DNA of 64,000 nucleotides from a virus, in IMG/VR virus record IMGVR_UViG_3300048586_000548, positions 1-64,000 of that record. One strand, 5' to 3'. The stretch's first letter is position 1; every line of letters begins with the position of its first letter. The notes beneath the pieces are model-generated. The model searched no databases, was not told the DNA's origin, and saw only the letters and a program-made list of their open reading frames with translations. A program made the position numbers and the translations under genes. Below, piece after piece: positions 8,630 through 58,182 of this stretch.

Positions 8630-9091
8630 ATGTCCACCGATACACTGTCGCGCTTCCAGGCGCTGTCTCCGGCTGCCCAGGAGCAGCTGCTCGCGCAGCT
8701 CACCGCGGCACCTGCCGCCCCCACCCCGGCCCCCGGCACGCGCTCGGCGGCGCCGGAGTCGTACTACGACATGGACGCTGCGGTGCCCGTGACGTTCAAG
8801 GCCAAGCTGTCCCCCAGCCCCAAGGCCCGGGACAAGTCGTACGCCGAGCGCTTCGATCACATCTGGGTCAAGGGCCACTACCAGGTGGTCGGCCCCAAGG
8901 GCGGCCAGTACTGCGTGGGCCGCGTGGTCCTCGGGGTGAAGAAGGGCCAGCAGGTCAAGGGTATCCTGCGGATCTCCAACGCCAAGTTCCTCGAACTGCA
9001 GGCAGGCGGCACCGTGGACGGCTGGATGCGCCCGGATGACAGCAAGGACTCGGTGTTGCTGGGTGAGTTGTCGGGCTATCAGGCCGTGTAA
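8630..9091 (+). CDS. Hypothetical protein (153 aa)
   Basis: Starts at ATG 8630 after AAGGAA and lies alone between a terminator and the thyX promoter. The N-terminal third is helical then Ala/Pro-rich. The rest looks like a compact beta domain with K-G-x-Y-x-V-x-G-P-K-G-G-Q-Y and a V-K-G-I-L-R strand, suggestive of an OB-like or nucleic-acid-binding barrel, but I cannot name a family. Its stop codon forms the TAA of the exact promoter-like element at 9089. Confidence 0.65.
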   Translation: MSTDTLSRFQALSPAAQEQLLAQLTAAPAAPTPAPGTRSAAPESYYDMDAAVPVTFKAKLSPSPKARDKSYAERFDHIWVKGHYQVVGPKGGQYCVGRVVLGVKKGQQVKGILRISNAKFLELQAGGTVDGWMRPDDSKDSVLLGELSGYQAV

Positions 9092-9113
9092 GGTCTCGAC
9101 CGCACGGTCGAAC
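9089..9113 (+). promoter_or_regulatory. Bipartite promoter-like element, exact copy A
   Basis: TAAGGT (9089-9094), 14 bases, CGAAC (9109-9113). Only seven bases separate it from the thyX ATG and they contain no ribosome site. If CGAAC is a -10 element, the thyX message would start at or next to its AUG. One of six exact copies in the window. Confidence 0.65.
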
Positions 9114-9120
9114 ACCCAAC

Positions 9121-9888
9121 ATGACGACACCCCTCAACATGTACGAAGCCCCGAGGGTCACGGTGCTGTCCGTGCCCTCGTTTCTGGAGCCCGCCCACTT
9201 GCCGGTCGAGTGGGCGGAGGGCCCGGAACCGGTCAGCGCGCAGGAAAAGCTGATCGAATACGCCGGACGGCTGTGCTACATGAGTCAGCACAACCCGGCG
9301 AAGCGCACCACGCCAGAATACCTGGCGAACGTGATGGACCTCGGTCATGGCAGCGTGCTCGAGCACGGGCAGCTGGTGTTCCTGCTCGAAGGCGTGAGCC
9401 GCTCGTTGACCCACGAGCTGATCCGCCACCGGGTGGGCATTGCCATCAGCCAACTGAGCCAGCGGTACGTCGACGCCTCGGACACCGCGTTCGTGGTGCC
9501 GCCGATGGTGCTGGCATACCCGGACACGCGTCCGGCGTGGGAAGCGCAGTGCCGGGCGGCACTGGCGTGCTACCAAGCCTTGGTCGCCCGCTGGGAAGAC
9601 CCGCTGGTGATGCCCGAGCTGCTGCCCACGATGCGCCGCAAGCGTGCACGAGAAGCCGCGCGGTCGGTGCTGCCCAACTGCACGGAGACCAAGTTGGTCT
9701 GGAGCTGCAACCTGCGCGAGCTGCGGCATGTGCTGCGCCTGCGTGGTGATGCCTCGGCCGACTGGGAGATCCGTCGCTGGGCGCTGGCGTTGCACGCCGC
9801 GTCGCTGCCACACGCCCCGTCGGTGTTGGGAGACATCACCGCCGACCCGGATGAGGACACCCTCGCCTTCGGGCGGGAAGGAATCTGA
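9121..9888 (+). CDS. thyX: Flavin-dependent thymidylate synthase ThyX
   Basis: A 255-residue ThyX, which makes dTMP from dUMP with FAD, NADPH and methylene-tetrahydrofolate. The signature is R-H-R at 102-104 followed by Q-L-S-Q-R-Y (111-116). The serine lies eight residues after R-H-R rather than the usual seven, by my count. The G-H-G-S-V-L-E-H segment (about 75-82) and C-T-E-T-K near the C-terminal domain fit the family. It works with the dUTPase (42708) and ribonucleotide reductase (31687) of this phage. It has no ribosome site and lies directly behind a promoter-like element, so it is probably leaderless. Confidence 0.92.
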   Translation: MTTPLNMYEAPRVTVLSVPSFLEPAHLPVEWAEGPEPVSAQEKLIEYAGRLCYMSQHNPAKRTTPEYLANVMDLGHGSVLEHGQLVFLLEGVSRSLTHELIRHRVGIAISQLSQRYVDASDTAFVVPPMVLAYPDTRPAWEAQCRAALACYQALVARWEDPLVMPELLPTMRRKRAREAARSVLPNCTETKLVWSCNLRELRHVLRLRGDASADWEIRRWALALHAASLPHAPSVLGDITADPDEDTLAFGREGI

Positions 9889-9890
9889 GC

Positions 9891-10394
9891 ATGAGCTACG
9901 AAACGGACATCGAAACGCACCTCCTGCCCACGGGGGTGGAGGTCACGGTGAAGATCGAGCGCCGCTGGAGTGACGACGAGTGGGACACCGGGGAAGTGGT
10001 GGTCTGCTACCCGGACGGCACGGAGCATGTGTTCTACGCGCCGTCGTGGAGCCCGTACACCATGTCCGACGTGTTCGACGCGCTGACCCGGAAGGGCGCT
10101 GAGCCCGCCCGCCCGTCGTGGGCGCTGGAGCGGGTGTGTGCCGCGCAGGCCGCCCTCGTCCAGGCGGAACAGCGGCGGGCGGAGGCGCTGGCCACGTTGC
10201 AGGCGTACCCGCCCGTGCCCACGGGGGACGTGTCCGCGGAGTTCGCGCGGGGCTTGCAGTCCGTCGCCTGGGGCTATGTCATGGCGTGCTCGACTGTGGG
10301 TCGGCACGAGGCCGACCTGCAGGCGCGGCGCCGGGAGTACTTCGCGGCCGGTGGGTCGGAAGTCGAACTGCTGTTGACGCCGGGAGGTGCGTGA
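9891..10394 (+). CDS. Hypothetical protein (167 aa)
   Basis: Starts two bases after the thyX stop, with GGAAGGAAT upstream. The N-terminal half is beta-rich and acidic, and the C-terminal half is a long, Ala/Gln/Arg-rich probable coiled coil (about residues 75-150). Its TGA shares a base with the next ATG. No family recognised. Confidence 0.65.
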   Translation: MSYETDIETHLLPTGVEVTVKIERRWSDDEWDTGEVVVCYPDGTEHVFYAPSWSPYTMSDVFDALTRKGAEPARPSWALERVCAAQAALVQAEQRRAEALATLQAYPPVPTGDVSAEFARGLQSVAWGYVMACSTVGRHEADLQARRREYFAAGGSEVELLLTPGGA

Positions 10395-10876
10395 TGGCCC
10401 ACAGCCACTACCACGCCGTGTCCAGTGCGCGTCGCTACGGCGGCGTGGCCGAGGATTACCTGCCGCTGCACAACTTCTTGGACTCAAGCAAGGCAAGCTG
10501 GGCGGACCAGCGACACCGGGCGGTGCTGCACCACGCCTTCGGCGTGTTCGTCGCCGAGCAGGTGATTGGGCAACAGGAAGAAGTCCGCCTGCTGCGGGCC
10601 GCGCTGGCGCGGGTGCCGCGCTGGGCCCAGCGCCTGCTGGGCCTGCGGATCCCCGCCACCACGCCCGTGACCCTGGAGGTCACCGGCGGTAAGCAGGTGC
10701 CCATTCGCCTGGTCGCGGAGCAGCACATCATCGAAGACTGTGGGTTTGTGCCCTCGGTCGAAGACTATCTGCAGGCGGTGCCGCGCGAGAAGTGGATCAC
10801 CCGTGGCGCGATGCGCTTGAGCGCGGTGCTCGCCGATCCGGACGCCGCCCCGCCTGCGCTGGCGCCCCATGGCTAA
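10394..10876 (+). CDS. DUF6915-like protein (160 aa)
   Basis: Begins M-A-H-S-H-Y-H-A-V-S-S-A-R-R-Y-G-G, then a D-x-x-D-Y-L-P-L-H helix, a R-H-R-A-V-L-H-H-A-F-G-V-F segment and an A-E-Q-H-I-I-E-D-x-G-F-V-P-S motif. I know this series from the family annotated as DUF6915. The family has conserved histidines but no known activity. Length is usual for the family. The central A-A-L-A-R-V-P-R-W insertion may be lineage-specific. Confidence 0.7.
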   Translation: MAHSHYHAVSSARRYGGVAEDYLPLHNFLDSSKASWADQRHRAVLHHAFGVFVAEQVIGQQEEVRLLRAALARVPRWAQRLLGLRIPATTPVTLEVTGGKQVPIRLVAEQHIIEDCGFVPSVEDYLQAVPREKWITRGAMRLSAVLADPDAAPPALAPHG

Positions 10877-11057
10877 GCGTACCTACGCGACCCCCGTCGA
10901 AGCCGAGCAGTACCGCGCGCGAGCGCGGGACCTGGTTGGCTCCGCGGACGGCGTGCTCGTGAGCCGCGTCGGACGGGTCGCGTTGTCAACCCGCGCGTGC
11001 GACGACACCGTCGAAGGCGCCTGGGTACCTGCGTTTGTGTTCGTGGAGGCGGAATGA
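10869..11057 (+). CDS. Small hypothetical protein (62 aa)
   Basis: Overlaps the preceding gene by eight bases and the next by four (ATGA). Basic N-terminal helix, then a short beta-rich part. Nothing identifiable; real by its tight coupling and codon pattern. Confidence 0.55.
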   Translation: MAKRTYATPVEAEQYRARARDLVGSADGVLVSRVGRVALSTRACDDTVEGAWVPAFVFVEAE

Positions 11058-11527
11058 CCTTCGACCCGACAGCGCTGCGTGAATGTATCGCCGACGCCCA
11101 AGCCGCCATGCCTTTTCCGGTGCGCCGGATGGCAGTGTGCTGGGACCGAGATCACCTCTCCCCCAACATCATCGAGTACGAGTTCTTTCCGGAAGGCTTC
11201 GGTCCGTATGGGACGTGTGCGCCCAGCGCGTTGAGTCCGGATGACGTGCGCGCATACTTCGACGACCTGTACGATTACGACGAAGACATCCCCAACTGGG
11301 ACGCCCAGTACGAGCTGGCCTGCCATGTCGCGGATGCCCTCACCCCGGCGGACACACCCGCGTACTGGATGGCCCGCGTTGTGATCGACCTCGAGACCGG
11401 GGAGTATGTCCTGTGCGCTGGGGTGTACGGTGCCGCACCCGGCGATCGGGTCACCGGCGTCTATGCGCCGCGGCCGCTGACGTTCCTGGAAGCCCTGCAC
11501 GCCACGCTGGGCCCGGCGCATGAGTAA
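11054..11527 (+). CDS. DLETG/LRTG-group protein with C-terminal tag (157 aa)
   Basis: Starts at ATGA overlap 11054. It carries an H/Y-E-Y-E-F strand, a D-D-V-R-A-Y-F helix, then V-I-D-L-E-T-G-E-Y and a C-terminal F-L-E-A-L-H-A-T-L-G tag. Closest relative is the next gene: same strand, helix and D-L-x-T-G order. First of six consecutive genes with this 'D-L-R-T-G then terminal helix' plan. Function unknown. Confidence 0.7.
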   Translation: MTFDPTALRECIADAQAAMPFPVRRMAVCWDRDHLSPNIIEYEFFPEGFGPYGTCAPSALSPDDVRAYFDDLYDYDEDIPNWDAQYELACHVADALTPADTPAYWMARVVIDLETGEYVLCAGVYGAAPGDRVTGVYAPRPLTFLEALHATLGPAHE

Positions 11528-11978: not shown

Positions 11979-11991
11979 CAAAGGCACTCCC

Positions 11992-14325: not shown

Positions 14326-14642
14326 GCTTGACCCGCGAGGACGTGCTGGCGCTCAGTGGACGGGTCGACGGGAGCCGCGTGCGGGTCACGGATCGATGGG
14401 GCGGCAGCACGGTCGGGTATATCGTGCACGCCACGTCAGCGTACTTCGGACTGCGCTTCTACCAGGACTGCTACGGGAGCGACCGCTCGATCTTCTACCA
14501 CGACGTGGTCCGCATCGAAGGCACGCGCAAGAACCGGCGCGGCTACCCGCTCTATTGGGCGAAGACCGCGGTGGTCCAAGACGGCGCGGCGCTGGATCTG
14601 ACCGGCACGCTGCAGAACCTGCTGGCTGGGGCGCAGTTGTGA
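14322..14642 (+). CDS. Hypothetical protein (106 aa)
   Basis: GTG start in a GTGA overlap. A small beta-barrel-like body (D-G-S-R-V-R-V-T-D-R-W-G-G) with aromatic residues, ending in the helix L-D-L-T-G-T-L-Q-N-L-L, a weak version of the shared C-terminal tag. No family known. Confidence 0.6.
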   Translation: MSLTREDVLALSGRVDGSRVRVTDRWGGSTVGYIVHATSAYFGLRFYQDCYGSDRSIFYHDVVRIEGTRKNRRGYPLYWAKTAVVQDGAALDLTGTLQNLLAGAQL

Positions 14643-14716
14643 CCGCCCTGGCCGTGGCCACCTTGGGCCTGTGGCTTGCCTTGGTGGCACATCTGCGTAA
14701 CGAGCACCTGCTGTAA
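14639..14716 (+). CDS. 25-residue membrane peptide
   Basis: GTG start in a GTGA overlap; encodes one hydrophobic segment (Ala/Leu/Trp-rich, about residues 3-19) followed by a short charged tail. A tiny integral membrane protein is plausible; its neighbours at 14978, 15086 and 15312 are also membrane proteins. Its TAA begins the exact promoter-like copy B. Confidence 0.5.
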   Translation: MTALAVATLGLWLALVAHLRNEHLL

Positions 14717-14738
14717 GGTCAGTGTCCGCTTGCCGAAC
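14714..14738 (+). promoter_or_regulatory. Bipartite promoter-like element, exact copy B
   Basis: TAAGGT (14714-14719), 14 bases, CGAAC (14734-14738), upstream of the DUF3310 and membrane-protein operon. Its spacer shares GTCCGCT with the copy at 30285. Confidence 0.65.
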
Positions 14739-14740
14739 AG

Positions 14741-14767
14741 ACGTACACCCTTACGAGGAGCGTACGT
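14741..14767 (+). promoter_or_regulatory. Leader hairpin presenting the ribosome site in its loop
   Basis: ACGTAC (14741-14746) pairs with GTACGT (14762-14767). The GAGGAG ribosome site lies in the loop and the 3' arm overlaps the GTG start at 14766. The same layout occurs at 30310-30340 behind another copy of the promoter-like element. Confidence 0.5.
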
Positions 14768-14981
14768 GGCGGACACCCCGGACCTGGTCAATCAGCCTCC
14801 GCACTACAAGACGGGCGGCATCGAAGTCATCGACTTCATCGAAGCCAAGCAGCTGGACTTTCACTGCGGCAACGTAGTGAAATATGTGGCACGTGCCGCC
14901 CACAAGGGCGCCGAGCTGCAAGACCTCGAAAAAGCGCGATGGTACTTGAACCGCGCCATCGCCAAGCGGGGTGGCGCATGA
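14766..14981 (+). CDS. DUF3310 protein
   Basis: A 71-residue protein with P-P-H-Y-K-T-G-G-I-E-V-I-D, F-H-C-G-N-V-V-K-Y-V-A-R-A and D-L-E-K-A-R-W-Y-L, the full signature of phage DUF3310 (SaV-like) proteins. These are common in phage nucleotide and replication modules but have no proven activity. GTG at 14766 is chosen because GAGGAG lies just upstream and the family starts near this point. Confidence 0.88.
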   Translation: MADTPDLVNQPPHYKTGGIEVIDFIEAKQLDFHCGNVVKYVARAAHKGAELQDLEKARWYLNRAIAKRGGA

Positions 14982-15073: not shown

Positions 15074-15085
15074 AAGGAGCTTTGC

Positions 15086-23717: not shown

Positions 23718-24450
23718 CCTGCTGACCCGACCAGCGCATACGCGCTACCGAAAAAGTGTTGTCGACGTCCCCGAGAGCCCGCCTTCCAGCGGGCTCTTTG
23801 TTTTGAAGTCTGCGACGTCCAACAAAAAGCTGGGCGGTGGCAGCAGCGTGGTCACCAAGGGGCGGTACCGGGGCATGCCCTTGTACAGCCTGACCCTGGA
23901 AGAGCGCGCTACCTGCTGGGACGGGTGCCAGAACTGGGGTCGCTGCTACGGAGATAACATGCCCTTCGCGAAGCGCTACGTCCCGGGCGATGCGCTCGAG
24001 GATGCCATCGCCCGTGACGTCGCCCGTTTGCACGCCAAGCATCCCGCGGGATTCGTCGTCCGGCTGCACGTCCTCGGTGATTTCTATTCCCCCGCCTACG
24101 TGCGGTTCTGGCATGAACTGCAACGCGCCACGCCGTCGCTGCATGTGTTTGGCTACACCCATTGGCCGCCTGGCAGTGCGATTGGCTACGAAGTCACCCA
24201 GTGGGTGTTGGCCGAGCCCGATCGCGTGGCCATTCGTCGTTCCGATGCGACCGACCCGCACGACCCCCTGCCCCCGGCCTATACGGTCACGCGCTTGGCG
24301 GATGTCGTGGGTGACAGTGTCGTGTGCCCGGAACAGACCGGTCGCACGGCCAGTTGCTCGACCTGCGGATTGTGCATGGATCAGCGCGTGGCGATCAGCT
24401 TCTTGGACCACTCGCGCCAAGCACTGCGCGTACTCGCAACACCCGGGTAA
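23707..24450 (+). CDS. DUF7227-like phage protein
   Basis: A 247-residue protein with G-R-Y-R-G-M-P-L-Y-S-L-T-L-E-E-R-A-T-C, the Cys cluster C-W-D-G-C-Q-N-W-G-R-C-Y-G, then R-L-H-V-L-G-D-F-Y and F-G-Y-T. I know this series from proteins annotated DUF7227, which recall radical-SAM-like phage proteins. A C-terminal C-S-T-C-G-L-C cluster supports metal or iron-sulfur binding. Activity unknown. Its TAA begins a partial TAAGGT element. Confidence 0.65.
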   Translation: MFHDLLTRPAHTRYRKSVVDVPESPPSSGLFVLKSATSNKKLGGGSSVVTKGRYRGMPLYSLTLEERATCWDGCQNWGRCYGDNMPFAKRYVPGDALEDAIARDVARLHAKHPAGFVVRLHVLGDFYSPAYVRFWHELQRATPSLHVFGYTHWPPGSAIGYEVTQWVLAEPDRVAIRRSDATDPHDPLPPAYTVTRLADVVGDSVVCPEQTGRTASCSTCGLCMDQRVAISFLDHSRQALRVLATPG

Positions 24451-24460
24451 GGTGCGCTGA

Positions 24461-24488
24461 TTGACAGGGAAGTACTACGGATTATCAT
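24461..24488 (+). promoter_or_regulatory. Sigma70-type promoter
   Basis: TTGACA (24461-24466), 16 bases, TATCAT (24483-24488): a perfect -35 and five of six -10 bases. It drives the 24557-28002 unit. A partial TAAGGT element (24448-24453, then GGAAG after 14 bases) overlaps it, so host and phage polymerases might compete here. Confidence 0.7.
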
Positions 24489-24556: not shown

Positions 24557-24922
24557 ATGTCAGACCGGGACCCCCGGCTGGTGTCTGCTGAAGAAATCCT
24601 CCGCGCAATCGGCGGCCCCCGCGACGTGACCAGCAATGTGAATATGCTGCACCCGTTGGAGGTCCAACTGCCGCGCACCTATCTCGAACACGTCATGCGG
24701 GAGAGCCTGGCAACGTTGCGGGCCGGGGCCGCAGACGATCCCGCCACGGTGCGCGCCATCCAGCAGCGCATCGACTTCCTGGGCTGGTTGGCTGGACAGC
24801 CCGAGCTGGTCGAGATCGCCTTGTATCCGGCTGCCGACGACGGCTTGGATGACCTTGAGGACCTTGAAGACCTCGTCGACGACGAGGATGAAGATTTTCA
24901 GGGCGGCCGCCCGCCGTTCTGA
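24557..24922 (+). CDS. Hypothetical protein with SSB-like acidic tip (121 aa)
   Basis: ATG 24557 follows TTGGAG. The body is helical. The last 30 residues are almost all Asp/Glu/Leu and end G-G-R-P-P-F. An acidic tail ending in Pro-Phe is the mark of SSB proteins, which recruit repair enzymes with it; 30766 ends similarly. First gene of the integrase operon. It could recruit the same host partners as SSB, but no OB fold is seen. Confidence 0.6.
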   Translation: MSDRDPRLVSAEEILRAIGGPRDVTSNVNMLHPLEVQLPRTYLEHVMRESLATLRAGAADDPATVRAIQQRIDFLGWLAGQPELVEIALYPAADDGLDDLEDLEDLVDDEDEDFQGGRPPF

Positions 24923-24948: not shown

Positions 24949-25926
24949 ATGGTGGAGTTCGCAGAGGCCCACCGGCAGTGGCAGGCACACTTGGACACGC
25001 TCGGCGCCACGACGCCCCGAACGCGCGGCAACTACGCGTACGCGGTTCGGGCGGTAGCCAAGCGGGTCCCCTTGCTGGGTCCACCTGCCGACGTGCGGGC
25101 GGCGTTGCAGCAGGTGCGGGCCGAACTGCAGGAGCGGGTGCAGGCCGGGGAGGCGAGTCGGAGCCTGATTCGGCTGACCGTCGCCGCCTTGCGGAGCTTT
25201 TATAGCACGCTGGTGGCGCTCGGCACCTACCCGGAGAACCCGGCGGCGGACTTGTCCAGCACCTCCGTGCCGGACGGTGTGCCGCGCCCGTTGGCGCAGA
25301 CCGAAGTGAACAAGCTGTTCACGGCCATCGACCCCAGCACCGCCGAGGGGCTGCAGGACCTGGCCATGGTCTGGCTGTATTACCACTCGCTGCGGAACAG
25401 CGAAGTCGCGGAGTTGCGGGTGCATCACGTCCAATACTCGCCTGGGGACGAAACGTTCCTGCTCCGGTTTCCGGCCAAGGGGGGTAAGACCCGCGTGGTC
25501 ACGCTGATCCCCGAGGCGGCCGAGCCGTTGGCGTTGCACCTGCTGCGCCACTTCGAGCTGCCCACACCCGAGGGCGTGTCGCCCCTGGAGGCGCTGGACC
25601 GTGCGCTGAACGGCCCACTGGCCGAGGAGCGGGGGCCGGTGTTCTGGCACCACGGCAAGCCGATGACTCGGCGGGCGGCGAATCGGCGGTTTGCCGCGCT
25701 GCGCGAGGCGGCGCAGCTGGGGGCGCACGTTGTGCCCCACGCGCTCCGCCACACCTGCGCGACCAACCTGCTGAACGCCGATGTGGACATTCGCACGGTG
25801 CAAGAGATCTTGGGGCACTCGTCGCTGCGGCAGACCCAGGTGTACACGGCCGTGCTGACCAGCAAGAAGCGGCAAGCCATGGGACGGCTGCCCATTCCCG
25901 GAGGCGCGGTCCATGGGAGCCCTTGA
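24949..25926 (+). CDS. Tyrosine recombinase (integrase), XerC/D-like
   Basis: A 325-residue site-specific recombinase. The N-terminal core-binding domain (1-110) is followed by the catalytic set: Arg149 (S-L-R-N-S-E-V), Lys near 180 (K-G-G-K-T-R), His264 and Arg267 (H-A-L-R-H), His290 (L-G-H-S-S) and Tyr299 (V-Y-T-A). All residues are intact. Length and domain plan resemble XerC/D more than large phage integrases. It overlaps the RuvB-like gene by 14 bases and is the first of two integrases in this phage. Confidence 0.9.
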   Translation: MVEFAEAHRQWQAHLDTLGATTPRTRGNYAYAVRAVAKRVPLLGPPADVRAALQQVRAELQERVQAGEASRSLIRLTVAALRSFYSTLVALGTYPENPAADLSSTSVPDGVPRPLAQTEVNKLFTAIDPSTAEGLQDLAMVWLYYHSLRNSEVAELRVHHVQYSPGDETFLLRFPAKGGKTRVVTLIPEAAEPLALHLLRHFELPTPEGVSPLEALDRALNGPLAEERGPVFWHHGKPMTRRAANRRFAALREAAQLGAHVVPHALRHTCATNLLNADVDIRTVQEILGHSSLRQTQVYTAVLTSKKRQAMGRLPIPGGAVHGSP

Positions 25927-29292: not shown

Positions 29293-30287
29293 TCGGCTAC
29301 ACGTGCCCTCCTGCCGGGGTCGAGCCGGGGCGCACCAACGCGGTCGAGCACTGCTTGACCGAATGCGTCCAGCCCTGCACCACGCCCCCGCTGTTGGCGG
29401 CGATGTATAAGGCGGACGTGGAGAACTACCACCAGGGCGATTACATCAGCGCAAGCATGATGGCCGGGTCGGGCTGTGCCCGGCAGGTGATGTTCGAGCG
29501 GTTCAAGGACTTCCACGAAGTGCCGACACGTCGGTACTGGGCGTTCCGAGGTACCCACGCCCACGCCATCGTGGAGGGTGCGCAGGACTTGATCGCGCAG
29601 TACGGCTGGCTGCAAGAGATTCGGATGGCCACGGAGTTGACGTACGATCTGCCGCAGCCCGTGTTCGAGAACGGCGTGTGGACCGGCGACTTTGATTCCA
29701 CCCAAGACCTGATCATCAAGGTCCGGGGCACGTGTGACGCGTATAACCCGTTGCGGGGTCCGGACTTGGTGGACTGTAAGTCGATGGCGGACAAGAAGGT
29801 CGACATGATGATCAAGGGGTCCACCCCCGGCACGTACAGCAAGAACCTGCAGGACAGCTGGGTGGCCCAGCTCAACATTTACCGGTACCTGATCAGCAAG
29901 ACCCCGGTGCCTGCCGAGGTGCACGCGGCGTACGCGTCCTTCGGGCTGCCTGCGCTCACGGATCCGTTGTTCCCGGCCCCGGAGCGGTTGTTCATCCAGG
30001 GCATTGCGATGATGTCGCACCCGGTGAGCGGGTCGCGGCTGGCCCACAAGCAGTACGGCAAGTACACGATCTACGACATCGACCACGTGCCGGTGTGGTC
30101 GCTGCAGGACATTGAAGACTTCATCCGGCCGCAGGCGCTGATGTGGTACAAGGCGCTGAACATGAAGCAGACCCCGCCGGTGGTCCCGAAGGACAAGGAC
30201 TGGCTGTGCCGGAGCTGCGCATTTGAGGGAAAAGACTGCTTCCCCGCGGACGAGCGCGGCCAGGAAGCCCCCTTCCCCGGGCCGTAA
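29283..30287 (+). CDS. Cas4/RecB-like PD-(D/E)xK nuclease
   Basis: A 334-residue exonuclease of the PD-(D/E)xK superfamily. It has G-T-C-D-A-Y, then D-L-V-D-C-K-S (the D-x-K metal site), then a Q-L-N-I-Y-R-Y-L helix. A C-terminal C-R-S-C-A-F-E-G-K-D-C with an upstream Cys fits the 4Fe-4S cluster of Cas4/AddB-type nucleases. Such phage enzymes process ends for recombination or replication and are common beside SSB-like genes, as here. Confidence 0.85.
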   Translation: MPLIGYTCPPAGVEPGRTNAVEHCLTECVQPCTTPPLLAAMYKADVENYHQGDYISASMMAGSGCARQVMFERFKDFHEVPTRRYWAFRGTHAHAIVEGAQDLIAQYGWLQEIRMATELTYDLPQPVFENGVWTGDFDSTQDLIIKVRGTCDAYNPLRGPDLVDCKSMADKKVDMMIKGSTPGTYSKNLQDSWVAQLNIYRYLISKTPVPAEVHAAYASFGLPALTDPLFPAPERLFIQGIAMMSHPVSGSRLAHKQYGKYTIYDIDHVPVWSLQDIEDFIRPQALMWYKALNMKQTPPVVPKDKDWLCRSCAFEGKDCFPADERGQEAPFPGP

Positions 30288-30309
30288 GGTTTTCGTCCGC
30301 TCGTCGAAT
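30285..30309 (+). promoter_or_regulatory. Bipartite promoter-like element, exact copy C
   Basis: TAAGGT (30285-30290), 14 bases, CGAAT (30305-30309), ahead of the SSB-like and ribonucleotide reductase genes. The TAA is the nuclease stop codon. Confidence 0.65.
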
Positions 30310-31613: not shown

Positions 31614-31659
31614 GTAGGACTAACCACACAATCGAAAACTCGTGGTGGGGTCGACCTAC
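31614..31659 (+). promoter_or_regulatory. Nested hairpin before the ribonucleotide reductase gene
   Basis: GTAGG (31614-31618) pairs with CCTAC (31655-31659) and inner ACCAC (31623-31627) with GTGGT (31642-31646). It lies 27 bases before the ATG at 31687. It is too small for a cobalamin riboswitch. It may be a leader control hairpin. Confidence 0.4.
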
Positions 31660-31686
31660 TGATCCCACTACTCACTGAGGGTTTGC

Positions 31687-34600
31687 ATGCGCACGCCACC
31701 GTTCACGCTGTCTGACGACTTTTTGGCCCCCTACCAGACCATCACTCCGCCCTTCGGCTTCAACGGCCTGGGGGAGTTGGTGTATTTGCGGACGTACAGC
31801 CGCGTCAAAGCGGACGGCACGCAAGAACGGTGGTGGGAAACCGTGCGCCGCGTGGTGGAAGGCACGTACACCATGCAGAAGCGCTGGATCACTGAACACC
31901 ACCTGGGCTGGAGCGAGCGCAAGGCGCAGCGCTCGGCGCAGGAGATGTACGATCGCATGTTCTACATGAAGTTCCTGCCGCCGGGTCGCGGGCTGTGGGC
32001 CATGGGCTCGCCGCTGACGGAAGGTCGGGAGACTTTTGCGGCCTTGAACAACTGCAGTTTTGTCAGCACGAAGGACCTGGCATCGGACCTGGCTGATCCG
32101 TTCACGTTCCTGATGGACGCCTCGATGCTGGGCATCGGGGTGGGCTTCGACACCGCTGGGGCAGGCATGCTGGCGCTGCACGCGCCGAACCCGCTGCTGG
32201 CTGAGACTTACGTCGTGCCGGACACCCGTGAAGGCTGGGTGGAAGCCTTGAAGCTGAAGCTGCTGTCGTACTTCTGCCCGGATCAGGGTGTGGTGGAGTA
32301 CGACTTCTCGCTGGTGCGTCCCGAGGGGGAGCCCATTAAGGGCTTCGGTGGGGTGGCGGCGGGCCCTGGTCCGCTTAAGGACCTGCTGGGCGCCGTGGAC
32401 GGGGTGCTCGAGCGCGAGCGGGCAACCGGCGACGGCACGTTGAGCGTGACTGGGATCACAGACATTTGCAACCTGACCGCCAAGTGCGTGGTAGCAGGTA
32501 ACGTGCGTCGAAGTGCTCTCATTAGTTTCGGCGAAGCCGACGACGAGGAATTCCTCGACCTGAAGAATTACGAAGTGAATCCGCATCGCGCTGCATACGG
32601 GTGGACCAGCAACAACTCGGTGTTCGCCAAGCTTGGCATGGACTACGGTCCGAGCACTGAGCGCGTGGTGCGCAACGGTGAGCCGGGATACATGTGGCTG
32701 GAGAACGCGCAGGCCTACAGTCGCATGGTGGACGAGGCCGATTTCAAGGACGCGCGCGTGATGGGGACCAACCCCTGTGGTGAACAAGGATTGGAATCGT
32801 ATGAGCTGTGCTGTGTCTCGGCCGACACTCGGATCCATACTCGCGCAGGTGCGCTGCCGATTGGAGACCTCGTTGGGCAAGCTGTCGAGGTCTGGAACGG
32901 TGCAGAGTGGTCGGAAGTCACACCATACCTCGCGGGGTACAACAAGCAGATGTACCGGGTTACGCTGTCTGACGGCTCGTTTCTCGATGTGACCGACAAC
33001 CATCGTTGGCTGGCGCGCCCCGACACAGCCCGCAAGTTCCGGGACATGACAACTCTGCAGCTGACGCCCGGCGATGTATTGCCTGAGTTCTCACTGGGAG
33101 ACGTCGTTGGCGAAGCGCAGCCGATGGCGTACGAGTACGGCTTTTTTGCGGGTGATGGATACATGGACAAGGGTGTCCCCATGCTGGCGCTGTTCGGGGA
33201 GGCGAAACAGTCTATCACAAGCTCCATCTCGGGGCGCGTCTATGCGGAGGAGTTCCCGAAGGGGTACAACGTTTCGCGTCAGCGTGTCAACTTGGTGGAC
33301 GTGTGTGATGCTGCGCTTGCGACACAGCTTCGGCGCAGTGACGGTCTTCCCGCGGAGGTGTTTACCTGGGACCGCGAGAGTACGGCGCAGTTTATCGCTG
33401 GATACATCGATGCTGACGGGTCCATTAGCAATTCCGGAACGGGCGGGGAAGGGCTCAAACTGCACGGCCCTGAAGGAAAGATGCGTGACGTGCAAACGCT
33501 GCTGCGGCGTATTGGTGTTGACCACGCGTCCGTGTATGTACTCAAGGGCCAGAAGAGCACGCTGACCATCAATGGCCGGGAGACGCATCGCAATTATGAC
33601 CAGTGGGTTTGCCAGGTCCCCTCCTTCGAGGCGGATGCGGTACCCACTCGGGTCAAAGTGCGTTCTTCCACCGCGAGTCGGTTTGCAAAGAACAATGCCC
33701 ACCCTGAGGGTGCGCTGATTGACCGCGCACGGAAGCAGCGGGTGGTCAGCATTGTGCCGTTGGGTATGCAGGACAGCTACTGCTTCACCGAACCGAAGCG
33801 CGGTATGGGCGTGTTCGGCAACGTACTGACCTACCAGTGCCTGGTGGAAACGTTCCCAACAAACCACGACTCGCTTGAAGACTATCAGCGCACCTTGAAG
33901 TTCGCGTACTTGTACGGCAAGACGGTCACCCTCGGACGCACGCACTGGGAGCGCACGAACCGGGTGATGCTCCGCAACCGCCGCATCGGATTGTCGCAGT
34001 CGGGCATTCAGCAGGCCGTGGCGAAGCTGGGCATCGAGGAGTACCGAGAGTGGTGCGAGGCAGGATACGCCACCGTGCAGTACTACGACAAGGTGTATTC
34101 AGAGTGGCTGGCGATTCCGCGCTCGATCAAGGTCACCACGGTCAAGCCCTCGGGGTCGGTGTCGCTGCTGGCAGGCGCCACGCCGGGTATGCACTGGCCG
34201 GAGGCGTTGACGTACGTGCGCCGCATGCGCCTGGGCCGCAACAGCGATCTGCTGCCTGCACTGCAGGCCGCGGGGTATCCGATCGAACCCGCGGTGGGCA
34301 GTGAAGACTCGACGTTGGTGGTGGAGATTCCGGTCCGCATCGGCGATGCCGTGCGCCCAGCCCACCAAGTGTCGATGTGGGAACAGCTGGCGATGGCCGC
34401 GTTTCTCCAGCGCTACTGGTCGGATAACCAGGTCTCGGCGACGGTCACCTTTGATCCGGCGACGGAAGGTCCGCAGCTGGCGCATGCGCTGGACTACTAC
34501 CAGTACCAGCTCAAGGGCATTTCGTGCTTGCCGCGCACGCCTGCCGGGGCCTACGCCCAGATGCCATACGAGGCGATCACGGTCGAGGAATACGAAGCAC

Positions 34601-34692
34601 GTGCCGCGGCGCTGACCCCCGTGCAGTTCGGGTCGACGCACGACGAGGCCGTGCCTGAGCGATTCTGCTCTAATGACACCTGTACGGTGTAA
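31687..34692 (+). CDS. nrdJ: Class II (B12-dependent) ribonucleotide reductase with intein
   Basis: Reduces ribonucleotides to deoxyribonucleotides. Of 1001 residues, 376-717 form an intein, leaving an extein of about 659 residues, the size of monomeric adenosylcobalamin-dependent reductases. Exteins show N-N-C-S-F, the catalytic N-P-C-G-E-Q just before the intein, V-K-P-S-G-S-V-S-L-L and a C-terminal C-S-N-D-T-C redox pair. No separate small subunit is present, which fits class II. Stands with ThyX, dUTPase and a thioredoxin-like gene in phage nucleotide supply. Confidence 0.9.
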   Translation: MRTPPFTLSDDFLAPYQTITPPFGFNGLGELVYLRTYSRVKADGTQERWWETVRRVVEGTYTMQKRWITEHHLGWSERKAQRSAQEMYDRMFYMKFLPPGRGLWAMGSPLTEGRETFAALNNCSFVSTKDLASDLADPFTFLMDASMLGIGVGFDTAGAGMLALHAPNPLLAETYVVPDTREGWVEALKLKLLSYFCPDQGVVEYDFSLVRPEGEPIKGFGGVAAGPGPLKDLLGAVDGVLERERATGDGTLSVTGITDICNLTAKCVVAGNVRRSALISFGEADDEEFLDLKNYEVNPHRAAYGWTSNNSVFAKLGMDYGPSTERVVRNGEPGYMWLENAQAYSRMVDEADFKDARVMGTNPCGEQGLESYELCCVSADTRIHTRAGALPIGDLVGQAVEVWNGAEWSEVTPYLAGYNKQMYRVTLSDGSFLDVTDNHRWLARPDTARKFRDMTTLQLTPGDVLPEFSLGDVVGEAQPMAYEYGFFAGDGYMDKGVPMLALFGEAKQSITSSISGRVYAEEFPKGYNVSRQRVNLVDVCDAALATQLRRSDGLPAEVFTWDRESTAQFIAGYIDADGSISNSGTGGEGLKLHGPEGKMRDVQTLLRRIGVDHASVYVLKGQKSTLTINGRETHRNYDQWVCQVPSFEADAVPTRVKVRSSTASRFAKNNAHPEGALIDRARKQRVVSIVPLGMQDSYCFTEPKRGMGVFGNVLTYQCLVETFPTNHDSLEDYQRTLKFAYLYGKTVTLGRTHWERTNRVMLRNRRIGLSQSGIQQAVAKLGIEEYREWCEAGYATVQYYDKVYSEWLAIPRSIKVTTVKPSGSVSLLAGATPGMHWPEALTYVRRMRLGRNSDLLPALQAAGYPIEPAVGSEDSTLVVEIPVRIGDAVRPAHQVSMWEQLAMAAFLQRYWSDNQVSATVTFDPATEGPQLAHALDYYQYQLKGISCLPRTPAGAYAQMPYEAITVEEYEARAAALTPVQFGSTHDEAVPERFCSNDTCTV
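32812..33837 (+). mobile_element. Intein with LAGLIDADG homing endonuclease
   Basis: Encodes 342 residues inserted between Cys375 and the next Cys (+1). It starts C-V-S-A-D-T-R-I, has block B T-D-N-H-R-W, and two LAGLIDADG helices (F-F-A-G-D-G-Y and F-I-A-G-Y-I-D-A-D-G-S). It ends V-L-T-Y-Q followed by Cys: the usual His-Asn is Tyr-Gln. Removing it rejoins E-L-C to C-L-V-E-T-F-P, the normal enzyme sequence. Third-position bases look less GC-rich than the exteins, fitting recent arrival. Confidence 0.92.
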
Positions 34693-36702: not shown

Positions 36703-37005
36703 CCTAGGTGACCCCGCCCCCGCGCGCAACCCCTAACGACGTCTCCTGCAGGACAATTGGTGACCCAATTGGTGACCGCCCCGCGCAAACCCGCATTCCA
36801 TAAGGGCTTTCCGGCTCCGCCTGCGCTCCCAAAGCGGACGCGCTACCGGACTGCGCTACGCCCCGTGTGACCTAAAAGATTGGTCTTTATGCGTTTGCAG
36901 TGTTTCGTAGTTGTCGCTAACTACTCCCTCCGAATGTTTCACTTTGTTCCAAAACACCCCTAAAACCCTATCATTTTTCGCCAATTGGTGACCAATTGGT
37001 GCACC
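36703..37005. other. Probable attP region with arm-type repeats
   Basis: The 340-base gap 36669-37009 has no convincing gene. Copies of CAATTGGTGACC occur at 36754-36765, 36766-36777 and 36982-36993, with a variant at 36993-37005 and a half copy (GGTGACC) at 36707-36713. Two more variants lie at 38172-38192 on the other side of the integrase. Repeats flanking a core beside an integrase are typical of arm-type integrase sites. The T-rich stretch at 36870-36980 could allow bending. Confidence 0.6.
36825..36865 (-). other. 5' half of a tRNA-Pro-like sequence
   Basis: Read on the minus strand from 36865 it has CGGGGCG, TA, a GCGC D-stem with AGTCCGGTA, and an anticodon loop TTTGGGA (anticodon UGG). 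The similarity ends at GGGAGC. There is no T-arm or matching 3' acceptor, so it is not a working tRNA. It lies between the arm-type repeats and may be the attP core identical to the host tRNA-Pro gene. Most tRNA-based sites carry the 3' half, so this is unusual. Confidence 0.55.
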
Positions 37006-37009: not shown

Positions 37010-38137
37010 TCAGTCCACCTCCATCACCGCGCGGACGTCGGCCTCTGACACCAGCTGGTAGTGGCGCTGCAGGGTTTCGATGTTCTTCCACCCGCCCGCA
37101 AACGCCACGTCCACCACCGGCAGGTGCTTGCGCTTGGTGGCCCACAACCGCCGGTACGGGTGGAACTTTCCACCTTCCAACGGAGGCACACCAGCTGTCT
37201 TTTCTGCGGACTGCAAACACGCCGCGGCGTAGTCGCCGTGCCAGTGCTCCTGGGGGTTGCTGATCTTAGGGAACAACCAAGGCCCTGGCACGTCGAGGGC
37301 TGTACGGGCCTCCAGCAAGGCCGCCAGGCGCGGCTGGAGCCACGAACTCACCGGCACCCACCCTGCCATACCTTCCTTGTCGGACTCCGCGCGCTTGTAC
37401 ACGCGCTCGAGTTGTACGTCCTCGAGCCGCAGTGCGCACAACGCCGAAACGCGCCACCCCAACGCTTTGACCAGATCCAGCAGCCCACCGAACAACCCTT
37501 GCGAACCCACCTGGTCTGCCACGGCACGCACCGCGTCGAAGCGCTCGTCCGACGCGATAGGCCGCCGGGGCTGCGGGGTGTCGGGAATCACGACCTGCAC
37601 GAGTGGGCTTCGAGTGATCAGCATCGCGGGGTTCTTCATCCCCAAGTTCACCACCCGACGAAGCCACTCCAAATCCAATCCCACCACGCGATCGGTGCAG
37701 TTGGCCTTGAGCGTCGTGTCCGGAATGTTCAACGTCCCGGCTTTGCGCTGCAGCTTAAAGCGCTCCAAGATCACCGGAGGCAGTGCGTGCACCGGTTGAT
37801 GCAGCGGCAACACCGCGCGCCAAATGCGGAGCTCCAGGGCATCGGTCTTGGCCTGCTTGGGGCGGCTCAGGGGCAGCCAATATTGGACGTACCAGTCCAG
37901 GAGCTGGGCCCAGGTCGTGCCCGGATCGCGGGTGGTGCCTTCGCGCACCGCGTACAATTCCGTGGCCAGCTCGAGGGCCGCGGCCTTGGCCTTCGTGAGC
38001 ACCTTGTCAGTCAATTGACGGTACCGGCGCTTCCGGGTGTTGGGATCCGTCCAGCGCAGCAACAACGGAGCTCCGGGACGGCGCCGAAGCACCGCCACCT
38101 TCGCGCCGTAGTGTCCCACCGAAGCGAGTTGTTCCAT
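37010..38137 (-). CDS. Tyrosine integrase 2
   Basis: A 375-residue integrase from ATG 38137, counting residues from there: Arg229 (G-W-R-V-S-A-L), a basic/Lys turn, His326 and Arg329 (F-H-P-Y-R-R), Trp350 in the H/W position (G-G-W-K-N) and Tyr360 (R-H-Y-Q). The N-terminus has an arm-binding-like basic strand region. An upstream GTG at 38194 is open, but using it would put the repeats at 38172-38192 inside the gene. No ribosome site is clear at either. Adjacent to the attP-like region. Confidence 0.88.
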   Translation of the reverse strand: MEQLASVGHYGAKVAVLRRRPGAPLLLRWTDPNTRKRRYRQLTDKVLTKAKAAALELATELYAVREGTTRDPGTTWAQLLDWYVQYWLPLSRPKQAKTDALELRIWRAVLPLHQPVHALPPVILERFKLQRKAGTLNIPDTTLKANCTDRVVGLDLEWLRRVVNLGMKNPAMLITRSPLVQVVIPDTPQPRRPIASDERFDAVRAVADQVGSQGLFGGLLDLVKALGWRVSALCALRLEDVQLERVYKRAESDKEGMAGWVPVSSWLQPRLAALLEARTALDVPGPWLFPKISNPQEHWHGDYAAACLQSAEKTAGVPPLEGGKFHPYRRLWATKRKHLPVVDVAFAGGWKNIETLQRHYQLVSEADVRAVMEVD

Positions 38138-41903: not shown

Positions 41904-42708
41904 GCCGCGCCTCCGCCTGCTCACGCTCACGCACCATGGTCAGCGTTTCGGCGTAGCCCGCGATGTCCACGGCGTTGTCCCGCTTGGCCCGGTTCATCTC
42001 GCGGCTCACCTTGACCAGGATCATGGCCAACGCTACTTCCCCCGGCTCGATCGGGGCCGTGAGTTTTTCCCGCCACATCCCGGACCACATCGCGGCCGTG
42101 CGGCTGAAGTCCACGATCGGGTGACCGTAGTCCGCCCCACGGTTGCCGTGCACCAGCCGCTGGGCTTCCTCGAGTGCCGACTCGTTCGGCACCACCGGCG
42201 GGGGCGCGGTGTCAGGAATGGTCGTATGCAGCAGGGCGTCGCGGACCTCGAGCCCCAGCGCACGGGCAATATCATGCTCCAGCCGCGCCCCCTTGCTGTG
42301 CTCCCAGCCGGGAAGGAGGGCAATGGCGTCCACACTCAGCAGCGCCTTGATGTCTTCGCGCATGTACACGGGGTAGGACAAGGTCTGGTCGCCGTCGAAG
42401 TGGTCGGCCGGGTTGACAACCTGCCACCCTTCACGACGCCAATCCGCGGCAGCCGCATGGAACGCTGGGAAGTTGTAGTCCTCGATGCCTGTCATCGGGC
42501 CGGAGATGTACACTCGACTACTCGTCATCCGTTGCTCCTCAAGATTTGGTGTCAGCCCGGAGCCGCCACAGGCTTCGCAAGCATGTTGTTCTTGTCCAGG
42601 CTCGGGGTCGCCGCAGCATTCCCCCGAGTCTCGTGCGCGCATGCAGCACTGCGGCACCGTAGCGAGGTAATAGCCGTCACCCCCGCACGCCCCGCAGGGG
42701 TGGTACAT
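41893..42708 (-). CDS. DnaJ-like knuckles, DUF4406 and DUF6378 fusion
   Basis: A 271-residue protein in three parts. Residues 1-55 have C-G-A-C-G-G-D-G and C-E-A-C-G-G-S-G knuckles. Next is DUF4406 (V-Y-I-S-G-P-M-T-G, V-V-N-P-A-D-H, A-L-L-P-G-W-E-H-S-K-G-A), related to nucleoside 2-deoxyribosyltransferases. The end is DUF6378 (H-G-N-R-G-A-D-Y-G-H, V-K-V-S-R). ATG 42708 overlaps the dUTPase stop (TGATG); an internal ATG at 42528 with GAGGAG may give a form without knuckles. Points to nucleotide or nucleoside metabolism beside dUTPase. Confidence 0.7.
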   Translation of the reverse strand: MYHPCGACGGDGYYLATVPQCCMRARDSGECCGDPEPGQEQHACEACGGSGLTPNLEEQRMTSSRVYISGPMTGIEDYNFPAFHAAAADWRREGWQVVNPADHFDGDQTLSYPVYMREDIKALLSVDAIALLPGWEHSKGARLEHDIARALGLEVRDALLHTTIPDTAPPPVVPNESALEEAQRLVHGNRGADYGHPIVDFSRTAAMWSGMWREKLTAPIEPGEVALAMILVKVSREMNRAKRDNAVDIAGYAETLTMVREREQAEARHAN

Positions 42709-43223
42709 CAAACACTCACGCCGGTGGACCCGAAGCCGCCCGTACGCTCCGTGGACTGCCCCACCGTCCCGACCTGCCAGTAGGCTTCGTGGCGCGGCTG
42801 GATGACCAGCTGGGCCACGCGATCGTGGTGGTTCAGCAGCGCCGCCCGGCTCGACACGTTGGTCAGCACGACGGCCCACTCGCCGGGGTAGTCCTCGTCG
42901 ATCGTCCCGGGAGAGTTGACCACCACCAGGCCCTGCTTCAGCGCCAGCCCCGAGCGGCTCCGCACCTGACATTCCCAGCCCGTCGGCAGCTGCGCCCGGA
43001 ATCCCAGCGGCACGGCCGCCCGGTCCCCGGGGTTCAGCCAGAAGCCCAGCCCTTCCACCTTGACCACGCGCTGCTCATTGGTGCGGCTGTACACCACCAC
43101 GCCCTGGTCTTCCCGCAGGGCGGACAAGTGCGCGTAGGCGTCCATGCCCGCTGAACCGGCCGTGCTGTACGTCGGCAGCGCGGCGTCCGGGTAGAGCGGT
43201 TCGATTACGACTGTTGCTTGCAC
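42708..43223 (-). CDS. dut: dUTPase
   Basis: A 171-residue trimeric-type dUTP diphosphatase, which hydrolyses dUTP to dUMP for ThyX. The five motifs are present: A-G-M-D-A, R-S-R-S-G-L-A, G-T-I-D-E-D-Y-P-G-E, D-R-V-A-Q-L and a C-terminal G-G-F-G-S-T-G. GTG 43223 is chosen because GGGGGAG lies just upstream. The body overlaps the end of the membrane protein gene at 43205-43417. Confidence 0.93.
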   Translation of the reverse strand: MQATVVIEPLYPDAALPTYSTAGSAGMDAYAHLSALREDQGVVVYSRTNEQRVVKVEGLGFWLNPGDRAAVPLGFRAQLPTGWECQVRSRSGLALKQGLVVVNSPGTIDEDYPGEWAVVLTNVSSRAALLNHHDRVAQLVIQPRHEAYWQVGTVGQSTERTGGFGSTGVSV

Positions 43224-43417
43224 GACGTGCTCCCCCGAAAGGCTGAGGCCACCAGCCACACGCCCGCGCCACCCACCCACGCCGTGCCCGTAGGTACCAC
43301 GCCCGCACGCGCCAGCAGGGACCAGCCCAAAACGCACATGCCCACCTTCACGGCGACCAAGATCACCTTGGCCAGCAACAGTCCCATACCTTCTGCGATC
43401 GTATCCGTATTCGCCAC
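43205..43417 (-). CDS. Small membrane protein (70 aa)
   Basis: First gene after promoter-like copy D. Two hydrophobic segments (L-L-L-A-K-V-I-L-V-A-V-K-V-G and a W-V-G-G-A-G-V-W-L-V) with a short loop. Overlaps the dUTPase start by 19 bases. Function unknown. Confidence 0.55.
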   Translation of the reverse strand: MANTDTIAEGMGLLLAKVILVAVKVGMCVLGWSLLARAGVVPTGTAWVGGAGVWLVASAFRGSTSCKQQS

Positions 43418-43445: not shown

Positions 43446-43470
43446 ATTCGCTCGGCAGGGCGCCACCTTA
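43446..43470 (-). promoter_or_regulatory. Bipartite promoter-like element, exact copy D
   Basis: On the minus strand TAAGGT (43470-43465), 14 bases, CGAAT (43450-43446). It lies between a terminator and the 43205-43417/dUTPase operon. Here the TAA is not a stop codon, so the element does not depend on one. Confidence 0.7.
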
Positions 43471-43479
43471 CAAACGACA

Positions 43480-44573: not shown

Positions 44574-44625
44574 CCACAGTTCCCCGATTCAATAGGCTAC
44601 GAGTAAGTCGAATCGGGGACTGTGG
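44574..44625 (-). promoter_or_regulatory. Long hairpin burying the ribosome site of 44240-44572
   Basis: Arms 44574-44590 and 44610-44625 pair over 16 bases with one bulged T, around a 19-base loop. Read on the minus strand the GGGGA ribosome site lies in the 3' arm, one base before the start ATG. Translation would need this stem to open. Confidence 0.65.
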
Positions 44626-44635: not shown

Positions 44636-44881
44636 CTACGCGGCGGGGGTCACTCCACCATCCGCCAGCTCCAGCGCCTCGTACACCAACTCGCCCGTCG
44701 CCTCGTCCAGCTGGGCCAGCTGTTCCGGGGCGATGCCCTGGGCGTCGAACACCAGCGTCAGCACCCGCTGCCCTTCACGATCGGCCTCGGCGAGGGCGCT
44801 CCGCAGGGTGTTCACTGCGCGCTGCGTGTCCTGAATCTGCTGCAACTGCACTGCGGTAAGCTTCTTGCGAACTTCGGCCAT
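44636..44881 (-). CDS. Hypothetical protein (81 aa)
   Basis: A helical, Gln/Leu-rich N-terminal half (V-Q-L-Q-Q-I-Q-D-T-Q) and an acidic second half. No motif. Precedes the long hairpin at 44574-44625. Confidence 0.6.
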   Translation of the reverse strand: MAEVRKKLTAVQLQQIQDTQRAVNTLRSALAEADREGQRVLTLVFDAQGIAPEQLAQLDEATGELVYEALELADGGVTPAA

Positions 44882-45073: not shown

Positions 45074-45098
45074 ATTCGTCGGTGACGCGTAGACCTTA
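45074..45098 (-). promoter_or_regulatory. Bipartite promoter-like element, exact copy E
   Basis: On the minus strand TAAGGT (45098-45093), 14 bases, CGAAT (45078-45074). It follows the stop of 45096-45308 and sits nine bases before the next ATG. Confidence 0.65.
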
Positions 45099-45308
45099 CG
45101 GGACCAGCGTGGCCGCCACCGTTACCACGGCACCCACGGTGAGTCCCGTGGCTTCCGCGGCGGTCATGCCGCCGATACGCACATTGATCGGTGCCACGGC
45201 GGTGCCGTAGCCGGGAGCTTGCGACGGCTCGTTGGGGCTCAGGATCACCGCGTAGGCAGTCCCGGTCATGGTGACAACTTCCTGGCGTTCAATCACGGTG
45301 TACTGCAT
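45096..45308 (-). CDS. Small tail-module protein (70 aa)
   Basis: Beta-rich with a conserved-looking G-Y-G-T-A-V-A-P-I and A-A-E-A-T-G-L-T-V segment. Follows the tail-fibre genes; could be a tail accessory or adhesin-tip protein. No family known. Confidence 0.55.
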   Translation of the reverse strand: MQYTVIERQEVVTMTGTAYAVILSPNEPSQAPGYGTAVAPINVRIGGMTAAEATGLTVGAVVTVAATLVP

Positions 45309-51245: not shown

Positions 51246-51248
51246 CGC

Positions 51249-57110: not shown

Positions 57111-57113
57111 TGC

Positions 57114-58034
57114 TTATGCTCCGGTGTACGAGCCGCCCTCGATCGGACTGCCCGGATCGAGGTAGTCGTCGTCTTCTGCTGCCCCCACCACCTGGCCGCC
57201 CTCGACCATCAGGAGCGTGCCGTCGGGCAGGTACGTCAGGTTTGCGCCCGTACCGCCATACGCCAGAGCCAGAATTCCGCCCGGGAACGACCCGCCGCCC
57301 GAGGTGCCGGTACCGAACTCGCCCACCGGAGGGATCGGGTTCCCCGCGAAATCTTCCACGACGAACGTGAACTTGCTCTCAGAGTAGCGCACCGAGCCGC
57401 CGTCGCCGCGCAGCACGCGGGTGGTGTCCAGGACGCGCACGCGCCACCAGGCCGGTTCGATCCAGCTCACGCGGATCTCGTTGCCCGCGTTCAGGGCGCC
57501 CACCAGCTCCTGCTCCAGCACCAGCGTCGTGCCCGTGGCGTAGTTCACTGAGTGGCGCACCCAGGCCCCGCTGGCCATCAGCGCGTCCACCACGGCGTAC
57601 TTCAGTGTCGTGGGGTGCACTTCCCCGGTCAGATCGGGCACGGTCAGCGTCTGGCCCGAAATGCCCGTGACGGTGGTCTCCAGGCTGCGGCCGCGGTTGA
57701 GCAGGTTGGTAGTGCCGTCGTAGATGTACACATACGGACCAATGCCTCGAGACTGCAGCGAACGACTCTTCAAGCTTTCGAGCCAGCGGTACTGCATCTC
57801 GTAGCGTCGCGCCTCGGGTCCGAAGTTGGACCAAATCCAACTGCGGCGGCGCGGGTCGCGGCTCGGCATCTGGACGATCACGCGTCCGTCAGCGGTTTCC
57901 ACCTGCTCGCCGAGCTCGGTCGAGGGATAGTCCACGCGGGTCGGGGTGGGAAACAGCTCGACTTCGAGGCCCGACTTGGCCCCGTTCTCGTCGGGCATCG
58001 CCACCCAGAACCCCTTCTTCAACACGGTCGTCAT
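57114..58034 (-). CDS. Distal tail protein-like (306 aa)
   Basis: ATG 58034 is chosen because GGAG lies upstream and the next open stretch lies over a terminator-like hairpin. It has P-S-R-D-P-R-R-R-S-W-I-W-S-N, L-N-R-G-R-S-L-E-T and N-E-I-R-V-S-W. Order and size (tape measure, about 300-residue protein, large hub) match siphovirus distal tail proteins. The last third is Gly-rich. Assignment is mainly by position. Confidence 0.55.
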   Translation of the reverse strand: MTTVLKKGFWVAMPDENGAKSGLEVELFPTPTRVDYPSTELGEQVETADGRVIVQMPSRDPRRRSWIWSNFGPEARRYEMQYRWLESLKSRSLQSRGIGPYVYIYDGTTNLLNRGRSLETTVTGISGQTLTVPDLTGEVHPTTLKYAVVDALMASGAWVRHSVNYATGTTLVLEQELVGALNAGNEIRVSWIEPAWWRVRVLDTTRVLRGDGGSVRYSESKFTFVVEDFAGNPIPPVGEFGTGTSGGGSFPGGILALAYGGTGANLTYLPDGTLLMVEGGQVVGAAEDDDYLDPGSPIEGGSYTGA

Positions 58035-58055
58035 GGTCGTCTCCGGATGGCAAAA

Positions 58056-58087
58056 CGCTCCCCAACGGCACAGCACGTCGGGGAGCG
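58056..58087 (-). terminator. Attenuator-like hairpin before the distal tail gene
   Basis: CGCTCCCC (58056-58063) pairs with GGGGAGCG (58080-58087), with a few inner pairs around a TGCTGTGC loop (minus-strand reading). TTTT follows on the minus strand. It may reduce transcription from the tape measure gene into the tail-tip genes. Its loop resembles that of the terminator at 8553-8601. Confidence 0.6.
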
Positions 58088-58121
58088 CTTCGCGCTACTT
58101 TGCAGTCCGCCCCAAACAGAA

Positions 58122-58158
58122 ACTCCCCGTGACACTAGTAGGTCGAGTCACGGAGAGG
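58122..58158 (-). promoter_or_regulatory. Hairpin directly after promoter-like copy F
   Basis: Arms 58122-58133 and 58147-58158 match at 10 of 12 positions around a 13-base loop. The stem begins next to CGAAC of the element, as at 30310. Confidence 0.5.
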
Positions 58159-58182
58159 TTCGTCGAAGCTAGGGAAACCTTA
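58158..58182 (-). promoter_or_regulatory. Bipartite promoter-like element, exact copy F
   Basis: On the minus strand TAAGGT (58182-58177), 14 bases, CGAAC (58162-58158). The TAA is the tape measure stop. It could give the tail-tip operon its own start. Confidence 0.65.

Follow-up and report, generated by a model that had tools for sequence, protein, structure and literature searches.

Our data point to a class of phage-specific promoters that is probably read by the RNA polymerase of the host together with a sigma factor which the phage supplies as two proteins. The window, that is the whole stretch of DNA analysed here, makes up positions 1 to 64,000 of a virus record 93,493 bases long (G000, IMGVR_UViG_3300048586_000548), with genes called by a simple script. 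From sequence we infer that the element is a promoter, that two sigma-domain proteins read it, and where transcripts would start. A phage-specific bipartite promoter had been proposed in an earlier note on this DNA, and the orientation of the element, its spacing, its conservation before orthologous genes and the presence of a predicted phage sigma pair all support it.

Definition and placement of the element

The element was originally described as TAAGGT and CGAAC/T separated by 14 bases, in six exact copies. All six are present (TAAGGT-N14-CGAAY at 9089, 14714 and 30285 on the plus strand, at 43446, 45074 and 58158 on the minus strand), while dinucleotide shuffles of the window contain 0.01 such copies on average and none of 100 shuffles reaches six, so that the similar counts in shuffled sequence which would speak against the element are absent. 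The remaining 29 kb of G000 beyond the window hold no exact copy. Two degenerate copies, claimed at 700 and 24448, do exist, but a search of the window allowing two mismatches returns 17 copies against 11.7 expected, which is not significant, and what supports them is their intact upstream box.

The two-part structure stands, but the boxes have to be redrawn. TAAGGT occurs 18 times in G000, and 12 of these occurrences are in gaps or overlap stop codons; every one of the 12 has a preceding G and, at identical distance, a second box related to CGAAY. The upstream box is therefore GTAAGGT, one base longer at its 5' side, and the second box is looser than CGAAY, being [CGA]GAAY in most copies. The six TAAGGT copies found inside genes, where an abundance of elements would have told against a promoter, have neither the preceding G nor the second box. 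Scanning the whole record, as the earlier note had proposed, adds four two-box copies beyond the window to the eight inside it (Table 1). GTAAGGT is noncoding in all 12 copies, and noncoding sequence makes up 7.5% of G000. The fixed spacing of 14 bases is confirmed: among spacings of 12 to 24, GTAAG-N18-AAY occurs 13 times in G000 against 0–2 at each other spacing, and it is the sole peak in all four records that we compared. The element is non-palindromic and oriented towards the next gene, with its boxes about 21 bases apart.

As for the genes behind these copies, the suggested regulon for nucleotide metabolism, membrane and tail genes holds in its first part, with ThyX, dUTPase, a gene of the PHROG 'nucleotide kinase' group and the primase-helicase/DNA polymerase genes. 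Its extension to membrane and tail genes is weakly supported: the copy of the tail region, at 58158, has no counterpart that we could find in the relatives G002 or G003, and the motif conserved in that gap is a different one, CGACYTANT.

Table 1. Copies of the two-box element, CGACYTANT sites and sigma-domain genes in G000, with counterparts of the element in G002 and G003
Feature	Position	Strand	Context	G002	G003
GTAAGGT-N14-GAAAT, degenerate second box	699..724	+	upstream of ORF 752-1258		
GTAAGGT-N14-CGAAC	9088..9113	+	upstream of ThyX; ATG 9121, 7 bases past box		
GTAAGGT-N14-CGAAC	14713..14738	+	upstream of ORF 14766-14981 (PHROG 'nucleotide kinase' group)		
GTAAGGT, degenerate second box GGAAG	24447..24472	+	upstream of ORF 24557-24922		
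GTAAGGT-N14-CGAAT	30284..30309	+	upstream of ORFs 56-58, then ribonucleotide reductase	13665	80870
GTAAGGT-N14-CGAAT	43446..43471	-	upstream of dUTPase pair (43205-43417, 42708-43223); preceded by terminator-like hairpin	20775	67723
GTAAGGT-N14-CGAAT	45074..45099	-	upstream of small Cys-rich ORF (ATG 10 bases past box) and ORF 44636-44881	22630	65859
GTAAGGT-N14-CGAAC	58158..58183	-	upstream of ORF 57114-58034		
Further two-box copies	73144, 85019, 89667, 90718	-	beyond window		
CGACYTANT	31652-31660	+	window		
CGACYTANT	44602-44610	-	window		
CGACYTANT	58137-58145	-	window		
CGACYTANT	69158, 82611	-	record		
Sigma-region-2 protein	82196-82585	-	record; 129 aa		
Sigma-region-4-like protein	82670-82933	-	record; 87 aa; gene just upstream of region-2 gene		

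Conservation in related phages

Relatives were found by a terminase search of viral contigs and, for G003, by an alignment search; Megablast and protein searches of an annotated phage collection revealed no close relative of G000. G001 (84,877 bases) is near-identical to G000, agreeing with it at 56,687 of 56,746 bases before continuing for an extra 28 kb (G001 56747–84877), and represents the same phage rather than a separate lineage. Together the two span about 121.6 kb, so G000 is a fragment. G002 (94,271 bases) and G003 (84,553 bases) are syntenic relatives whose terminases are 78–79% identical, and the comparison thus covers three distinct phages only.

The extra 28 kb of G001 was not used in deriving the motif, and the two-box pattern was fixed beforehand. 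It contains four two-box sites, each of them in a gap, and none of the reversed pattern; GTAAGGT is noncoding there in five of five copies, four of which match the preset pattern. The GTAAGGT-based pattern has no match in G002. Reading through the gaps of this phage by eye, we noticed GTAAG at gene ends and TCAAY at the identical distance, so that the change from CGAAY to TCAAY, together with the G preceding it, came to light by reading and not by pattern. The neutral pattern GTAAG-N18-AAY recovers the TCAAY form in both G002 and G003. Sixteen sites of G000 and G001 give the profile GTAAGGT-N14-[CG]GAAY, and 18 sites of G002 and G003 give GTAAG[GA][AT]-N13-G-TCAAT (in a broader form GTAAGRW-N14-TCAAY). 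GTAAG is invariant at 34/34 profile sites, an invariance that is partly built in, as GTAAG and AAY belonged to the search pattern. Orthologous genes follow the element in all three phages at no fewer than six sites (ORFs 56/57, the dUTPase pair, the 85 region, gene 101, the 115 region and the primase-helicase/DNA polymerase genes), and one or two additional sites are common to two phages. It should be noted that one gene call on the plus strand of G000 (87606-89372) was wrong; the actual gene is on the minus strand and matches the AEP primase-DnaB helicase of G003.

At six sites (G000 89667; G002 1538 and 16990; G003 14170, 27829 and 76591) the second box is located in the loop of a hairpin with a stem of 10–15 pairs, in which the spacer pairs with sequence past the second box. 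The hairpins are mostly terminator-like, and a T-rich stretch follows in the five G002 and G003 cases. Stems of at least nine pairs occur at 7 of the 34 sites, against an average of 1.2 and a maximum of 6 when the downstream parts were redealt 500 times. In RNA that reads through from upstream the hairpin would form and could end transcription; RNA begun past the box would be without the 5' arm. A promoter nested within a terminator-type hairpin may be a compact means of closing one unit and opening the next.

The element appears to concern phages of Gemmatimonadota, of which, to our knowledge, few or no isolates exist. Beside an integrase gene (37010-38137), the window carries an exact 42-base copy (36824-36865, minus strand) of the 5' half of a Gemmatimonadota tRNA-Pro(TGG) gene, and a 36-base piece of it, sought in 84,980 species genomes, occurs in four stretches, all in Gemmatimonadota bins. 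The copy is probably an attachment site and points to Gemmatimonadota as the host. At the corresponding position G003 carries a 5' half resembling tRNA-Ala; this piece was not found in three Gemmatimonadota genomes, nor was the terminase in 395 of them. A second tyrosine recombinase gene (24949-25926, plus strand) adjoins a gene for a RuvB-like AAA ATPase.

The sigma-domain proteins and a proposed reading of the element

A search of G000 for sigma region 2 gives a single match above the cut-off, at 82358-82549 on the minus strand. For Pfam PF04542, whose cut-off is 24 bits, the scores of this protein in the three phages are 42.5, 42.8 and 34.7 bits (E 5.6e-11, 4.7e-11 and 1.5e-8). Its AlphaFold model has a low pLDDT of 57 and yielded no structural match; the assignment to region 2 rests on Pfam. 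The protein encoded just upstream stays below the cut-off for region 4 (PF04545, 17.4 and 17 bits against 24.1, Pfam E 0.003), and its G002 copy has no PF04545 match at E <= 1. Its model, however, is good (pLDDT 86.8) and shows the four helices ending in a helix-turn-helix that define the sigma-region-4 fold. Nearly all Foldseek matches to it among PDB structures are to sigma region 4, with a best probability of 0.9–1.0 and TM-scores of up to 0.8 by target, yet E-values of 0.16 and up. We regard another sigma-4 match, at 540-602 (E 0.02), as fortuitous.

Both proteins are conserved in G002 and G003 (60–62% and 64–69% identical). Their genes are separate in all three phages and stand in the order 4 then 2, with a gap of 84 bases in G000 and of about 100 in the relatives. 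This order is the reverse of a normal sigma chain, which rules out a broken single sigma gene as the explanation. A gene for a RuvC-like resolvase (82933-83613, minus strand) is directly upstream of the pair. There is no element directly before the sigma genes, and the copy at 85019 is situated upstream within a shared run of genes, which would allow feedback. Between the lineages the region-2 protein differs around its DNP motif (RL to NR/GR, F to Y) and after it (KLSS to RIYN). The corresponding part of ECF sigma factors contains a loop that selects a base of the −10 box (PMC8103513), and the differing residues may fall on that loop.

In the mechanism that we propose, the host core polymerase would take both phage proteins as one sigma; the region-4-like protein would read GTAAGGT as the −35 box, and the region-2 protein would read and melt [CG]GAAY as the −10 box. 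That the pair is the reader is most likely from its co-occurrence with the element in these phages, whose other DNA-binding proteins are only partly annotated. Transcripts would be expected to start about 6–9 bases past the second box, and the class would serve genes of replication and nucleotide metabolism, among others. With the start distance mapped in phage 7-11, leaderless or nearly leaderless messages are possible for ThyX and for the small ORF after the copy at 45074. A two-protein phage sigma with a promoter that uses both boxes would, if true, be a small natural system for studying what each sigma half contributes. It also bears on the evolution of promoter specificity, as between relatives the −35 box stayed and the −10 box changed, alongside changes in the region-2 protein.

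CGACYTANT is mostly located in gaps (5/8 copies in G000, 8/9 in G002, 8/11 in G003) and precedes shared genes in the three phages, including those for ribonucleotide reductase, genes 95 and 91, and the gene of the region-2 sigma protein, which thereby has a box of its own; perhaps it is another promoter class. It often sits in a hairpin loop. The ribonucleotide reductase of G000 (31687-34692, plus strand) is B12-dependent and carries an internal LAGLIDADG domain, probably an intein; the genes of G002 and G003 are about 350 residues shorter.

This second motif enters the reading in which an alternative, ECF-type sigma of the host recognizes the two-box element and the sigma-like proteins of the phage act at other promoters, for example those of the CGACYTANT class. 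The bipartite layout is ECF-like, bacterial hosts usually carry many ECF sigma factors, and a second conserved gap motif does precede the sigma-2 gene in all three phages. We nevertheless hold a host sigma to be rather unlikely, because the upstream box is not of the AAC type, because all three phages retain both sigma-domain proteins, and because the second box changed genome-wide as a block, which is easier with a reader made by the phage, although a switch of host could likewise account for it. A two-tier system, to which we give little weight, would have the region-2 protein read single-box promoters, alone or with another partner, and two-box promoters together with the region-4 protein; gaining or losing the second half would then switch between gene classes.

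It is quite improbable that a phage activator or repressor (MotA-like or operator-like) binds the element in place of a sigma factor. Several early genes lack annotation and site-specific regulators with sites in gaps are common in phages, but an element that is directional and has the box distance of sigma promoters fits the promoter layout mapped in phage 7-11 better. A stop-codon context or translation-coupling signal is extremely improbable. The claim that all copies lie in gaps is true insofar as they are noncoding or overlap a stop codon, but five of the six exact copies and both degenerate ones, hence seven of the window's eight, have a TAA stop codon at their start. The copies at 43446 (for which independence from a stop codon had been claimed, and is borne out), 73144, 89667 and 90718, however, use no stop codon, at G003 936, G001 73141 and G002 22630 the preceding gene ends in a TAG codon located a few bases ahead of the box, and the second box at its fixed distance would be left without a role. 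Chance or compositional artefact, which only the shortness of the boxes could recommend, is refuted by the shuffles, the fresh G001 sequence and the orthologous conservation.

Comparison with known sigma systems

Returning to the promoter read by a two-protein phage sigma, we found in the open-access literature, outside which most subscription papers lie, no phage in which region-4 and region-2 proteins are paired with a two-box promoter, and we know of none. Several known systems share part of the arrangement. The element had been likened to an extracytoplasmic-type promoter, and in layout this is right: ECF (group IV) sigma factors have only regions 2 and 4 and use bipartite promoters with strict boxes. 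However, they are single polypeptides that read an AAC-type −35 box, whereas here the box is GTAAGGT and the presumed sigma has its regions 2 and 4 in two proteins and not in one.

Phage T4 offers a split phage sigma in a broad sense, in which gp55 is region-2-like and gp33 takes the place of sigma 4 on the polymerase (PMC2988020). But gp33 does not read DNA, the two genes are far apart, a sliding clamp is needed, and late promoters of T4 lack a −35 element (PMC2988020). In the phages studied here no part of the element is better conserved than the presumed −35 box, and the single −10-type element of T4 is not what we see.

Late promoters of Salmonella phage 7-11, mapped by experiment, have the form GTAAtg-16-aCTA and are read by the phage sigma SaPh711_gp47, with starts 6–9 bases away from the element (PMC8948821). 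Both systems would combine phage-encoded sigma regions 2 and 4 with a bipartite promoter upstream of phage genes, and the start of the −35 box and the box distance are nearly equal. The second box differs, and gp47 is one chain of 185 aa, whereas here the domains are separate proteins; in sequence comparison gp47 has no recognisable similarity to the region-4 part and only a short one to the region-2 part. The relative of 7-11, phiEco32, uses a different promoter read by a diverged sigma (PMC8948821).

The architecture of the genes themselves is that of the split sigma SigO/RsoA of B. subtilis (PMC8103513), in which sigma-4 and sigma-2 are likewise encoded by separate adjacent genes with sigma-4 first, as in all three phages. 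SigO/RsoA is a chromosomal, bacterial system with demonstrated autoregulation, and the phage pair is likened to it by gene architecture only.
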